A stretch of 64,000 bases of DNA, from assembly GCF_900605005.1 (NCBI RefSeq), contig NZ_LR027558.1:1835334-1899333 (forward strand), written 5' to 3'. The stretch comes from Acidipropionibacterium timonense (GTDB lineage: Bacteria > Actinomycetota > Actinomycetes > Propionibacteriales > Propionibacteriaceae). Numbering within the stretch: position 1 is the first letter of the stretch; the number at the start of each line of letters is the position of its first letter. The notes beneath the pieces are model-generated. The model worked only from the letters and a program-made list of their open reading frames with translations. It was not told the origin of the DNA and searched no databases. Positions 14,505 to 56,265 of this stretch are shown here, in pieces. The translations under genes were made by a program, and so were the position numbers.

Positions 14505-17500
14505 ATGCCCGACGTCGCGCTCACCGACCCCGACCTCACGAATCTCCAGCCGTGGAGCGGCCCCGTCCCACCCCGCGCCCACCTGACGAGCGACGCACCG
14601 GTCCTCGACCTGTCCGGAGTGTGGCAGTTCCGGTGGGTCCGGGGCCTCCACGAGGCCACCGAGGGGTTCCAGGAGCCACATTTCGACCCCTCCGGTTTCG
14701 ACGAGATCGAGGTCCCGTCCTGCTGGCAGATGGTCGACCCGGGAGGGGAGGCTCCCTACGGGCAGCCCGCGTATCTCAACGTCACCTTCCCCATCGCCCT
14801 GCCCCGCCCCGACGAGCCGGTGAGCGTGCCGACCGAGAACCCCACCGGTGAGTACCGGCGCACCTTCGACCTGCCCGAGGGGTTCCTCGACGATGGGGTC
14901 GAGCGGGTGCTGCTGCGCTTCGAGGGGGTCGACTCGTTCGCCCGGGTGTGGGTCAACGGGGTCGAACTGGGCTGGACAAAGGGATCCCGCCTCACCAGCG
15001 AGTTCGACGCCACGTCGGCCCTGCACCCCGGCACGAACCTCCTGGCCGTGCGGGTGTCCCAGTGGTCCGACGCCACCTTCCTCGAGGACCAGGACATGTG
15101 GTGGGTCTCGGGGATCTTCCGCCGCGTGAGCCTGCTGGCGCGCCCCGTCGGCGGCATCGACGACCTCTTCGTCCACGCCGACTACGACGAGAAGACCGGC
15201 GCCGGGACGCTTCGGGTCGATCTCACAAGCTCGCCCTCCGCCGATATCCACCTCACCGATTCCTCCCCCATCGGTACCTCTCCCACCGGCACCGACGCCG
15301 CCGATGTCCCTGCCACCGGAACCGCGGCGGATCATCGACCGCAATGTGGCACGATTCGCATCCCCGAGCTCGGGATCGAGGCCCCCACCGACGAGATCTG
15401 CCACATTGCGTCCGTCGAGCCGTGGACCGCCGAGAGCCCGCGGCTCTACGACGCCACCGTCTCCACCCCCGCCGAGACCGTGAGCCTGCGGATCGGGTTC
15501 CGAACCGTGCGGGTCGAGGACGGCGTCATCAGCGTCAACGGCGACAAGATCGTCCTGCGCGGGGTGAACCGGCACGAATGGCATCCGCGCACCGGACGCA
15601 CCCTCGACGAGGCGACGATGCGCGCCGACCTCGATCTCATGAAGTCCCACAACATCAATGCCGTCCGCACCTCCCATTACCCGCCCGACGCACGGTTCCT
15701 CGACCTGTGCGACGAGTACGGGGTGTGGGTGCTGCTCGAGAACGACCTGGAGACCCACGGTTTCGAGGTCGAGGGCTGGGCGGGCAATCCCTTGGGCGAC
15801 CCGCGCTGGTACGACTGCCTCGACAACCGGATCCGTCGCACCGTCGAGCGCGACAAGAACCACCCCTGCATCATCGGCTGGTCCATGGGCAACGAGTCGT
15901 TCACCGGTGGGGGCGTCCGGCGGATGAATGACTGGGTCAAGGACCGTGATCCCGACCGGTTCACCCACTACGAGGGTGACAAGGAGCACGCCATCGCCGA
16001 TGTGTGGAGCGAGATGTATCCCGCGGTCGAGCGCGTCCGGGCCATCCGCGACCGCGACCCGCTGCCGGACTCGCTCGTCCACGTCGGCGAGCCCGGGCCC
16101 TTCCCCCAGGTCGGGCGCGAGCGTGGGATCCCCTTCCTCATGTGCGAGTTCGGGCACGCCATGGGCAACGGCCCGGGCGAGCTGTCCGACTACCTCGCCG
16201 TCGGGTTCGACCCCGACCGCACCGGCGACCGGATGCACGGCGGGTTCATCTGGGAATGGATCGACCAGGGCATCGAGGTCGACCGGGACGGGCAGCGGTA
16301 CTTCGCCTACGGCGGCGACTTCGGCGAGCCGCTCCACGACGGCAACTTCATCTGCGACGGGCTGCTCCTGCCCGACCGCACCCCCTCCCCGGGGCTGGTC
16401 GAGTACGCCGCACAGATCGCCCCGGCACGGCTGGGGGGACGGGTCGAGGGCGACGGCGTCCTCGTCGAGGTGACGAACCGTCGCGACATCACCTGTCTGG
16501 GTGACCTGAGGTTCAGGTGGGAGCTCGGAGGCACCGGCAGCGACCTCGAGGTGCCACGGCTCGAGCCGGGCGACACCGCGTCGGTCCGGATCCCTCTCAC
16601 GGACCTGGCGGACGGCCTCGAGGACGCAATGTGGCTCCACCTCGTCGCCGAGGCTGCCATCGACCGCCCCGGAGTGCCGGCGGGCCACATTGCAGCCAGG
16701 GGCGAGGTGGACCTGTCGCCCCTTCGCGGCACCGCGACAGAGGTGCAGGCGGTTGCGACAACCCACCCACCACGCCGGGTCCGATCCGGCTTCGAGGTCG
16801 GGGCTGCTCGCTTCGACCGCTGCGGCCAGCTCACCGCCCTCGGCGACATCACCATCGGCAGCCCGGTCATCGACCTCTACCGTGCCCCCATCGACAACGA
16901 CTCGTCCCCGTTGGCGGCCTTCGGCATCCTCGACCCGCAGCACCGGGCCGGGCTGCATCGGATGGTCACCCAGCCGGTGGAGGTCGAGCTCGTCGACGAC
17001 ACCCTCGTCGTCCGCACCCGGACCTGGGCCGCGGCGGCCTCCCGACGGATGGACGCGACGTGGCGCTGGACCGATCGCGACGGCGGGGCGCACCTCGACC
17101 TGCACGTCGAGCCGGTCGGCAGGTGGGACCTCATGCTCCCCCGCATCGGCGTGACGATGAGCCTGCCGACCGACCTGCGCTCGGTGCGCTGGCTGGGGCT
17201 CGGCCCGGGCGAGTCGTACCGCGACTCGTCGGCCGGAGTGTGGCACGACTGGTTCGACGCCGACGTCTCCGAGCTCCAGACCCCCTACGTGCGCCCCCAG
17301 GAGAACGGCGCCCGGATGGACCTGTCGGTCCTCGAGCTGCGCGGCGAGCAGGGCCTCCGGATCGACGCCGAGCGCACCGCGGACGGGTCACTGCCCGGCT
17401 TCGCCTACCGACCCTGGACGAGCGCGGCGATGGCGGCGGCTCGGCACACCGTCGACCTCGTGCCCGACGATGTGCTGTGGCTCACCCTCGACCTGGCCGG

Positions 17501-17659: not shown

Positions 17660-17727
17660 GCAATGTGGCACGAGCGTGACGCGGACAGCGCCATCGAGGT
17701 CCGCGCGGCCGTCCTGTGCCACATTGC
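17660..17727. repeat. paired inverted-arm element, copy 3 (lacZ-purE)
   Basis: GCAATGTGGC at 17660-17669 and GCCACATTGC at 17718-17727, 48-bp spacer, extended outward by TGACC on the left and AGTCA on the right. It starts 57 bp after the lacZ stop in the convergent lacZ/purE gap and abuts the 26-bp tandem repeats. Confidence 0.9.
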
Positions 17728-17728
17728 A

Positions 17729-17910
17729 GTCAGCGTGGGCTGGCGCCCGGGGCAGTCAGCGTGGGCTGGCGCCCGGGGCAGTCATCGTGGGCTGACGCCC
17801 GGGGCAGTCATCGTGGGATGACGCCCGGGGCGGCCATGGTGGGCTGGCGCCCCGAGTGGTCGCGGTGGGCTGGCGCCCGGGGCAGTCCTGGTCGGCTCAA
17901 GCCCGACTCG
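17729..17910. repeat. 26-bp tandem repeat, seven units
   Basis: The seven units start at 17729, 17755, 17781, 17807, 17833, 17859 and 17885; the last is degenerate. The core is GTGGGCTGGCGCCCGGGGCA. Each unit contains GGGC-TGGC-GCCC, a small hairpin. With copy 3 of the inverted-arm element, these repeats fill most of the 324-bp gap between the convergent lacZ and purE genes. No gene was seen there; an array of stem-loops could act as a two-way transcription barrier. Confidence 0.92.
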
Positions 17911-28160: not shown

Positions 28161-28546
28161 CGGGCTCGGTGCCGAGCCGCCTCACCACCGGACCGAGGAC
28201 GCACCCGCCTGACCCGGCCCGCGGCCACCTGCGCCCCGTGACCCCCTGCGCCCCGTGACCCCCCGTGCTCTGGGGCCACCCCCGACAGCCGACTCCCGAC
28301 GACTCAGGAATGCCCACTCCCCATGACCGCAATGTGGCACGCGAGGATCTTGCGACGCCCGAGGACCCCACCTCGATGGTTCCTGCGCCACATTGCGGTC
28401 ACGGGAACTGGCGCCGCGGTCCCGATGTCCACGCCGGGGACGGGGCTGGACCCCCGACTCCGAGCCCCCATCCCCACCACGGACACCGACATCTGCGTCC
28501 CGGCGCCCAATTGCCATCTCAGCGGCCCAGCACCCCCGGCCGAACG
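28161..28546. other. divergent birA-carboxylase intergenic region, no gene seen
   Basis: About 390 bp between the two predicted -10 elements. It holds copy 4 of the paired inverted-arm element in the middle. No convincing reading frame, tRNA or riboswitch fold was recognised. Confidence 0.5.
28329..28396. repeat. paired inverted-arm element, copy 4 (birA-carboxylase gap)
   Basis: GCAATGTGGC at 28329-28338 and GCCACATTGC at 28387-28396, 48-bp spacer. The arms extend outward as TGACC/GGTCA, making a perfect 15-bp inverted pair. It lies 164 bp before the carboxylase beta ATG and 180 bp before the birA start. Confidence 0.92.
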
Positions 28547-40401: not shown

Positions 40402-40469
40402 GCAATGTGGCACCGGATCCGCCCCGACCCGAGTTCGCGACGTTCACACCCCGACTTGCGCCACATTGC
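40402..40469. repeat. paired inverted-arm element, copy 5 (NUDIX-carboxylase gap)
   Basis: GCAATGTGGC at 40402-40411 and GCCACATTGC at 40460-40469, 48-bp spacer, with outward extension TGACC and (one change) CGTCA. The right arm falls where the -35 of the carboxylase alpha promoter should be. Confidence 0.92.
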
Positions 40470-51633: not shown

Positions 51634-51701
51634 GCAATGTGGCACTTCTCGGCTGGGCGGCGCCCGTCACGGACGCCCGACGCCCTCCCGCGCCACATTG
51701 C
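51634..51701. repeat. paired inverted-arm element, copy 6 (MFS-metG gap)
   Basis: GCAATGTGGC at 51634-51643 and GCCACATTGC at 51692-51701, 48-bp spacer; the right side extends as AGTCAC. It lies 25 bp after the exporter stop and 97 bp from the metG stop. Confidence 0.92.
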
Positions 51702-55870: not shown

Positions 55871-56265
55871 GACGTCGTCCTCTCGATGTCGGAGACGTCG
55901 AAGGCCTGCGGAAGCACCTCGTCCATGGTCCGCACCCCCAGTGGGGTGCGCACCAGCAGATCCGGGCCACCGTGCTCCCACAACAGCTGGCGACACCGAC
56001 CACACGGCATGATCGGCTCCCCCTGCTCATTGACGCAGGTGAAGGCGACGAGCCGCCCACCCCCTGCTGCAATGTGGTCGCTGATGACGCCGCACTCGGC
56101 GCACAGGGTCACCCCGTACCCGGCATTCTCCACATTGCATCCGCTGACGATCCGCCCGTCGTCGACGAGGGCCGCCGCCCCCACCCGGTAGTGCGAGTAG
56201 GGGACGTAGGCGCGCGCCGTCATGGCCAGGGCGACGTCGTGCAGTCTCTGCCAGTCGACGTCCAT
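55867..56265 (-). CDS. cdd: cytidine deaminase
   Basis: This 132-aa zinc enzyme converts cytidine and deoxycytidine to uridine forms. It has AYVPYSHYRVGAAAL, SGCNVENAGYG, the zinc/Glu motif TLCAECGVI (C55, E57) and PCGRCRQLLWE. The usual family text at the first site is CAER; here it is CAEC, followed by GVISDHIA where most have TAIF. Start ATG 56265 lies one base after the permease stop. In mycobacteria cdd (Rv3315c) also follows the phosphosugar mutase region. The gene holds the weaker seventh copy of the inverted-arm element. Confidence 0.93.
   Translation of the reverse strand: MDVDWQRLHDVALAMTARAYVPYSHYRVGAAALVDDGRIVSGCNVENAGYGVTLCAECGVISDHIAAGGGRLVAFTCVNEQGEPIMPCGRCRQLLWEHGGPDLLVRTPLGVRTMDEVLPQAFDVSDIERTTS
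56069..56138. repeat. paired inverted-arm element, copy 7 (inside cdd, weaker)
   Basis: GCAATGTGG at 56069-56077 and CCACATTGC at 56130-56138 match 9 of 10 bases in each arm; the total span is 70 bp rather than 68. The right arm encodes the conserved cytidine deaminase motif CNVE on the minus strand, so at least that arm is constrained by the protein. Confidence 0.6.

Follow-up and report, generated by a model that had tools for sequence, protein, structure and literature searches.

The paired inverted repeats that recur through the 64-kb window analysed here, the whole stretch C1:1,835,334-1,899,333 of genome G000, are probably two-site binding units of a protein X, an AbiEi-type wHTH-endonuclease as judged from its sequence, and appear to have multiplied around the gene that encodes it. 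Our best reading is that they would be private operator-type sites of X. An earlier note on this DNA had raised the idea of two sites bound by one protein complex, and this idea gains support from the rarity of lone arms, the near-fixed spacing, the free spacers and the presence of a candidate binder gene near the middle of the domain, from a family known for binding paired 23-bp inverted repeats.

Anatomy and distribution of the paired arms

The window holds six perfect inverted pairs of GCAATGTGGC and GCCACATTGC, where the mean expectation is 0.00 (none in 100 shuffles), and all six lie exactly where the earlier note had placed them (Table 1). Its start-to-start distances, 58 bp in five copies and 59 bp in the one at 15341-15409, were reproduced as well, and the further, imperfect copy that it listed at 56069-56138 is indeed present, with one mismatch per arm and a distance of 60 bp. 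The arm is about 17 bp long and asymmetric, with a consensus of about TGRMYGCAATGTGGCAC in this genome. The outer TGACC/GGTCA extension that had been noticed on many copies is real and forms part of this consensus. Directly 3' of the copy at 17660-17727, a 26-bp unit (agtcagcgtgggctggcgcccggggc) is tandemly duplicated at window positions 17728-17779.

Table 1. Coordinates of element copies in the window (window numbering), of gene X and its orthologs, and of one X-like gene with its repeats.
Feature	Coordinates	Strand	Spacing (bp)	Context
Perfect element copy	15341..15409	.	59	Within lacZ
Perfect element copy	16626..16693	.	58	Within lacZ
Perfect element copy	17660..17727	.	58	Intergenic, 3' of lacZ
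Perfect element copy (the copy named in the earlier note)	28329..28396	.	58	Intergenic
Perfect element copy	40402..40469	.	58	Divergent-gene gap upstream of biotin carboxylase gene
Perfect element copy	51634..51701	.	58	Intergenic
Imperfect element copy, 1 mismatch per arm	56069..56138	.	60	Within predicted cytidine-deaminase gene
Weak degenerate pair, doubtful	14616..14684	.	59	Omitted from later counts
X, candidate binder	C1:1,900,662-1,901,624	+		1.3 kb beyond the right-hand border of the window
X ortholog, G009	2,198,372-2,199,238			Element ~115-135 bp upstream of start
X ortholog, G013	1,162,726-1,163,592			Element ~115-135 bp upstream of start
A. oris X-like gene	NZ_CP116225.1 99,761 and 100,903			Two nearly identical ~122-bp repeats, GTGTCCAAATCGGA ends

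Genome-wide (2.82 Mb) we found 17 perfect pairs, all of them in C1:1,809,823-1,996,038 (186 kb). A weight matrix built from these 17 pairs was used to scan 524 kb around the domain and returned 26 pairs. Twenty-four are spaced at 58-60 bp and all lie in C1:1,795,405-1,995,971 (~200 kb), the two remaining low-scoring rows stand at 105 and 109 bp, and no pair at 58-60 bp occurs in the 160 kb on each side of the domain. The weakest of the 24 pairs (1,849,949) was dropped, leaving 23 elements in later counts. The earlier extrapolation from the window to hundreds of copies per chromosome is therefore wrong; the total is 17 perfect pairs, or 24 with the imperfect ones, in one 200-kb domain. Samples taken elsewhere in the genome (380 kb) gave one weak pair spaced at 74 bp and another at 59 bp. 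One good pair lies far from the domain, at C1:1,147,820, and no match to the domain proteins of the related genomes G009 and G013 (see below) was found around it. A further pair, spaced at 93 bp, sits on C2, a small contig with genes that match those of G009 and G013 within the domains of these genomes. The proposed check for arms that occur singly came out clearly in favour of pairs: among the 42 exact 10-mers in the genome (chance expectation about 5, calculated from base composition), 34 belong to perfect pairs, 4 to imperfect ones and 2 to the 93-bp pair, leaving only 2 without a partner.

In total, 17 of the 23 copies overlap no predicted gene in a region of which 87% is called coding, and flanking genes come in every orientation; the gene calls behind this count are those of a simple caller, which missed gene X. 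The gene dnaA is found at C1:2,678,024, about 0.7 Mb from the domain, and a dif-like site at C1:1,108,206, with the domain itself at 1.80-2.00 Mb. In G013 the domain (1.08-1.31 Mb) lies between a dif-like site at 1,892,221 and dnaA, which is apparently at the record start, as indicated by a partial antisense-strand match of an ORF from the dnaA locus. From these positions the domain is mid-replichore, provided that the scaffold order is right, and a reading of the elements as ori- or ter-linked sites, for which a comparison with ori and ter had been proposed, was rejected. The GC skew of C1 in G000 flips its sign between many neighbouring 20-kb samples and N runs are present, so the contig order may be partly arbitrary. 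Several CACTTTGCTCC and GGAGCAAGGTG words in inverted arrangement were seen near the dif-like site of G000.

No second domain with a different arm was recognised in the 448 kb of G000 sampled outside the domain. Pairs of GAGCTCGAC were considered as arms of such a domain and discarded, their interior being conserved and IS-like. The words GGCGGGCG and CGCCCGCC occur at 72 bp six times in the same 448 kb; they are GC-rich and may represent a tandem repeat.

The spacers had been described as showing no similarity. This holds in general for the 17 perfect copies, with the exception of one clearly alike couple outside the window (1,809,823 and 1,819,808). The spacer comparison of these copies gave a top score of 26, followed by 7, and the maximum in 300 shuffles was 4, while the mean spacer similarity is slightly higher than in the shuffles (-5.3 vs -8.7). 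The two alike copies agree over at least 125 bp and flank a variable island. Here, direct repeats of ~125 bp, each with an element copy, enclose Type I restriction-modification genes, a ThsB-like TIR gene and an ISL3 transposase (C1:1,809,772-1,819,882).

When we compared the outer flanks of paired arms, 62 of 115 positions agreed, against a permutation mean of 55.2 (p 0.13; 23 elements, low power). Folding of the 17 spacers, analysed on one strand and without the arms, gave z values between -2.7 and +2.5 relative to shuffles, with a mean of about 0. Because there is neither significant covariation of the arm flanks nor spacer folding, we read the unit as two protein sites and not as a stem; the RNA stem with a loop of about 48 nt, which the earlier note had offered as its second option, is unlikely. 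A search of Rfam at gathering thresholds gave no match.

Related genomes and the origin of the copies

The exact pair is present in 1 of 9 genus genomes and in 1 of 198 family genomes, our own genome being counted in both. The core pair CAATGTG/CACATTG was matched in 15 of 197 family genomes (reversed control 1 of 197), and among these 197 more than two copies were found only in G000 (22) and in two species of another genus of the same family, G009 (18) and G013 (11). In a class sample without G009 and G013, 4 of 394 genomes were matched, namely G000 and three with the Frankiaceae-type unit discussed below.

Both G009 and G013 carry their pairs in a syntenic, inverted region, with 23 pairs in 2,104,283-2,335,347 of G009 (340 kb scanned) and 17 pairs in 1,083,852-1,305,473 of G013 (360 kb scanned); the matrix used was trained on exact pairs, which match by construction. 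The arms are about 25 bp long with a drifted motif, GTYCCCAATGTGGCGYNNRSCGGCG, and the spacing is exclusively 57-59 bp in a scan range of 45-75 bp. The distance between the arms, which the earlier note had wanted checked for free variation, is hence nearly fixed in three species (58-60 bp in G000 and 57-59 bp in G009 and G013). The copies also tend to occupy corresponding places: G000 and G009 share seven occupied gene intervals (17 and 17 of 127; p 0.002, length-weighted 0.009), and G000 and G013 share six (16 and 11 of 116; p 0.0008, length-weighted 0.014), in tests that used 22 G009 and 13 G013 pairs. For the copy at 40402..40469, a degenerate pair stands in the corresponding gene interval of both species. 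At 10 chosen homologous positions, the identity between G009 and G013 reaches 0.92 for the arm, against 0.51 for the central spacer and 0.28 for the outer flank, the spacer and flank values being lower bounds from an ungapped comparison. Near edge elements of G009 we noticed a 94-aa gene and a three-gene operon (423, 605 and 1196 aa; C1:2,308,171-2,314,916) that is common to G013; its 1196-aa product looks helicase-like by eye and the operon is perhaps one of defence.

Neither pairs nor a changed motif nor relics at the expected spacing were detected in stretches of G012 (280 kb), G003 (220 kb), G001 (120 kb) and G004 (160 kb), of which G001 and G003 belong to the same genus as G000. At G003:C1:1,261,125 there is a near-palindrome, CAATGTGTCATGGGTGACACA, followed by CAATGTGTCACCGGTGACACATT ~57 bp further, at a distance of ~48 kb from the dif-like site.

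Exact arms were found at 13 loci in other genomes. Ten of these are in Frankiaceae/Frankiales and were set aside as a different, self-palindromic unit, GCAATGTGGCATTGC, some of them in short arrays; the remaining three are single matches in other taxa that we take as chance. In the Frankiaceae/Frankiales MAGs, the GCAATGTGGCATTGC units partly form arrays of ~31 bp, and paired units measure 66-67 or 75 bp in total; they have the same core word and are probably a separate repeat family. Matches on viral contigs (1 and 9 loci) have varied spacing and flanks and were likewise taken as chance. A search for plasmid DNA similar to one element gave nothing convincing; its 29 matches were weak, with E values of up to 1.

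Native sequence is kept between the arms in at least both lacZ copies: here the stretch between the arms aligns ungapped with lacZ of G001 and G003, and a block in the spacer of copy 1, CATCCCCGAGCTC, recurs unchanged in G001. This points to an origin in place for at least part of the copies. Insertion may still apply to some copies, since in the alignment our lacZ shows an insertion of 38 aa directly next to the left arm of copy 1, and since some copy-bearing intergenic regions are longer than in the relatives, others being shorter.

The candidate binder X and X-like genes

We arrived at X through genes that are common to G009 and G013 and absent in G012, and then through a 52% relative in our own domain. 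The protein has 320 aa from an ATG that was set by alignment, the frame being open further upstream, and its gene lies 204 bp downstream of the element at 1,900,390. In 3 of 3 genomes found with X, a pair stands about 115-205 bp upstream of its start; the X gene of G000 has pairs on one side only. Its nearest genes are that of a monomeric IDH on one side and a 470-aa gene on the other.

The AbiEi_4 model gives 38.9 bits for the X of G000, 26.3 for that of G009 and 22.0 for that of G013, the last being below the cut-off of 25, and at E up to 0.1 we counted 19 matched PADLOC AbiEi models for our X and 17 for that of G013. DUF559 reaches 22.4 bits in our X (cut-off 20.6) and stays below the cut-off in G009 (16.5) and G013 (16.4). 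MTES_1575, described as a Vsr-like REase domain in PMC3710099, was matched with E 4e-8 to 4e-5 in the three orthologs, below its cut-off in all of them. In Pfam only AbiEi and REase-like families were hit, with no transposase match; NCBIfam and PDB sequence searches with X gave no match, and a protein search gave one phage match (H15). Judged by these domain matches, X would join an AbiEi-like wHTH to a DUF559/MTES_1575 (Vsr-like) domain. A D, an E-x-D and the following residues are conserved in the three orthologs and would include the catalytic residues of a putative nuclease.

X adjoins elements in all three element-bearing genomes. At the corresponding place it is absent in the stretches examined of G012, G003 and G001, all without such pairs; the G004 stretch stops short of this place, and the absence is scored in stretches of three genomes only. 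Between the nearest aligned stretches, the X locus measures 1543 bp in G000 and 287 bp in G003, and G001 has 1345 bp there with no X match (best E 0.12). X-like paralogs do exist, as shown by one with 34% identity elsewhere in the G012 stretch. The numbers of sites to the left and right of X are 14/9 in G000, 14/9 in G009 and 8/9 in G013. Compared with a random place, the closeness of X to the site median gives p 0.10, 0.12 and 0.005, respectively, and is significant only in G013.

From a plasmid collection we obtained 12 X-like genes of Tsukamurella, Actinomyces and Arthrobacter, 10 by protein search and 2 as DUF559 genes in the Tsukamurella record; several of the "plasmids" carrying them hold housekeeping genes and look chromosomal. 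In a strict test, in which both flanks had to carry the same paired arms, 5 of the 12 genes are bracketed compared to 4 of 527 random intervals; RS09310 had first been noticed via its bracket, and RS18665 and H18 had been found as its relatives. The positives are RS09310, RS09515, RS18665, the A. oris gene and Arthrobacter H22, the bracket of H22 being weak, a short hairpin-like unit. Allowing mismatches, in a looser test without control, adds Arthrobacter H20, with 6 mismatches in one arm of its right copy and a single mismatch in the second arm, and H21, whose copies differ in spacing. Leaving out H22, 6 of 12 X-like genes are then bracketed, each with its own arms and two of them (H20 and H21) only with mismatches. 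The unbracketed six comprise H22, H13 with an 11-bp pair upstream only, and four with nothing. EL451_RS09310 is flanked by a ACATCTTTCGAAGCGTTCTG pair on either side; the two pairs differ in their spacers, and one pair begins directly after the stop codon. At the A. oris gene the spacer is also conserved, unlike in the other brackets, which makes it more like an ordinary repeat.

All eight X-like genes scanned with Pfam match DUF559 and/or MTES_1575 (E up to 0.05) and three match AbiEi_4; most of the scanned bracketed genes match DUF559/MTES_1575 without AbiEi_4. Dispersed private arms were found neither in 181 kb for RS09310 nor in 150 kb for the A. oris gene, 150 kb for H20 and 63 kb for RS18665. 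The bracket recurs at X-like genes; the 200-kb spread did not recur in these stretches.

Proposed mechanism, alternatives and known systems

We propose that each element acts as a two-site binding unit for X, with the X gene located close to the centre of the 200-kb domain. In this model, a monomer of X would bind each asymmetric arm of 17-25 bp via its wHTH, and the C-terminal domains would join across the gap. Such an arrangement, which we infer from the biochemistry of AbiEi and Rv2827c, would lead to fixed arms and spacing with a free middle. Given the pair upstream of the X start in three genomes, X probably regulates itself. Further pairs would have accumulated mostly within ~100 kb on both sides of X, a distribution that is itself observed. 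The local limit would be explained most simply if scarce X acts on DNA near its own gene. Alternatively, sites may profit X only if they are genetically linked to its gene, for instance through directing nicking and recombination in a way that keeps or copies the X region. What the dispersed copies do is the weakest point of this explanation, and our statements on it are tentative. As related genomes carry the system only patchily, we favour sites that serve the X-linked region or mark the reach of X over a housekeeping domain organiser. One may speculate, with some doubt, about a selfish or cis-acting system that consists of one gene, for a wHTH-endonuclease whose private paired sites multiply by in-place sequence change, mainly within ~100 kb. 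Its bracketed form would then be a widespread undescribed actinobacterial gene class, each member with its own site code, which marks, recombines or protects the linked region.

The pairs could also be bridging sites, MatP/matS-like in principle, of a nucleoid protein that folds the 200-kb region, with X as a mere neighbour or as a nuclease-inactive bridger. Such an organiser would suit the syntenic domain of 200-231 kb in three species and the intergenic bias (17/23) without preference for gene orientation, but we consider it rather unlikely: more than two core pairs occur in just 3 of 197 family genomes, the syntenic stretches of G012, G003, G001 and G004 contain no such pairs, and the domain is at neither dnaA nor the dif-like site. 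The native lacZ spacers, ungapped against the relatives, argue against REPIN-like mobile doublets, with X as mobiliser, the elements as non-autonomous local hoppers and the bracketed genes as the autonomous form. Spacer folding and a Pfam transposase match of X are missing too, and this reading is unlikely, even though REPIN/RAYT, as described in PMC3116915, likewise combine an associated gene with paired inverted ends that are better conserved than the middle, the X locus is longer than in G003 (1543 vs 287 bp; G001 1345 bp without X) and the 38-aa lacZ insertion adjoins one copy. That the elements are regulon operators of an ordinary transcription factor is quite improbable; a pair does lie upstream of X and several lie upstream of other genes, but sites are also placed between convergent genes and within lacZ, and confinement to 200 kb of unrelated neighbouring genes would be unusual. 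That the elements form a DNA cruciform or an RNA stem closing a 48-nt loop, for which one could cite the inverted arms of 10-17 bp, is highly improbable with a spacing fixed to 1-2 bp, no loop structure and flank covariation not beyond chance (p 0.13, low power).

If the elements are private operator-type sites of X, as we prefer to read them, an unexplained DUF559/Vsr-like family would be tied to concrete DNA sites, and we suggest that the site can often be read from the gene flanks. The system would also offer a natural case of a DNA-binding protein whose sites are confined around its own gene, in which the local action of such proteins is directly testable.

Several known systems share single traits with the element. 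matS is a single short palindrome in Ter. The elements are like MatP/matS in being short sites restricted to one chromosomal domain; they differ in that they are paired asymmetric arms, mid-replichore and not around the terminus, actinobacterial and patchy. From parS-type centromeres they differ in that the domain is not near oriC (dnaA is ~0.7 Mb away in the assembly contig order), and from insertion sequences and MITEs in that the interiors are unrelated save for one duplicated couple. DUF559/Vsr-like nucleases with or without an AbiEi-type wHTH are common in actinobacteria, and X resembles the DUF559/MTES_1575 Vsr-like REases in carrying such a domain, with the DUF559 match of our own X being over the cut-off. 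In the open-licence literature we found no report of a link between AbiEi and DUF559 or of DUF559 with inverted repeats. Among the matches listed for GCAATGTGGC none looked related by title and abstract start, and those listed for propionibacterial, macrodomain and palindrome literature (open-licence) included no relevant report. The earlier statement that no named family has this form stands within the open-licence literature, although the layout resembles REPIN doublets and AbiEi operators.

With REPIN-RAYT systems the elements share doublets of inverted conserved sites, a less conserved spacer and the tie to a gene, as described in PMC3116915. They differ in that X is of another protein family without a HUH tyrosine transposase match in Pfam, in that the elements lie mostly within ~100 kb on either side of X, and in their native lacZ spacers and lack of a spacer hairpin signal. 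The likeness to the AbiEi/Rv2827c type, that is type IV toxin-antitoxin systems, consists in the match of our X to the AbiEi wHTH and in the paired inverted repeats upstream of the gene; here, in contrast, the C-terminus is endonuclease-like and about two dozen copies are spread over 200 kb, more than in any AbiEi operator set we know of. The gap is different as well. According to PMC7319586, AbiEi binds its promoter at two inverted repeats of 23 bp that are separated by 3 bp, thereby bending the DNA, and Rv2827c binds two pairs with 13-bp gaps, where the larger gap may suit a larger C-terminal domain. By arithmetic, the arm-to-arm gap of the elements is ~24 bp in G009 and G013 with their 25-bp arms and 44 bp in G000 if the arm is 17 bp, compared to 3 or 13, so that G000 fits the AbiEi series less well. 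Taken together, we would liken the element to an AbiEi operator in its working and to a REPIN doublet in its looks.
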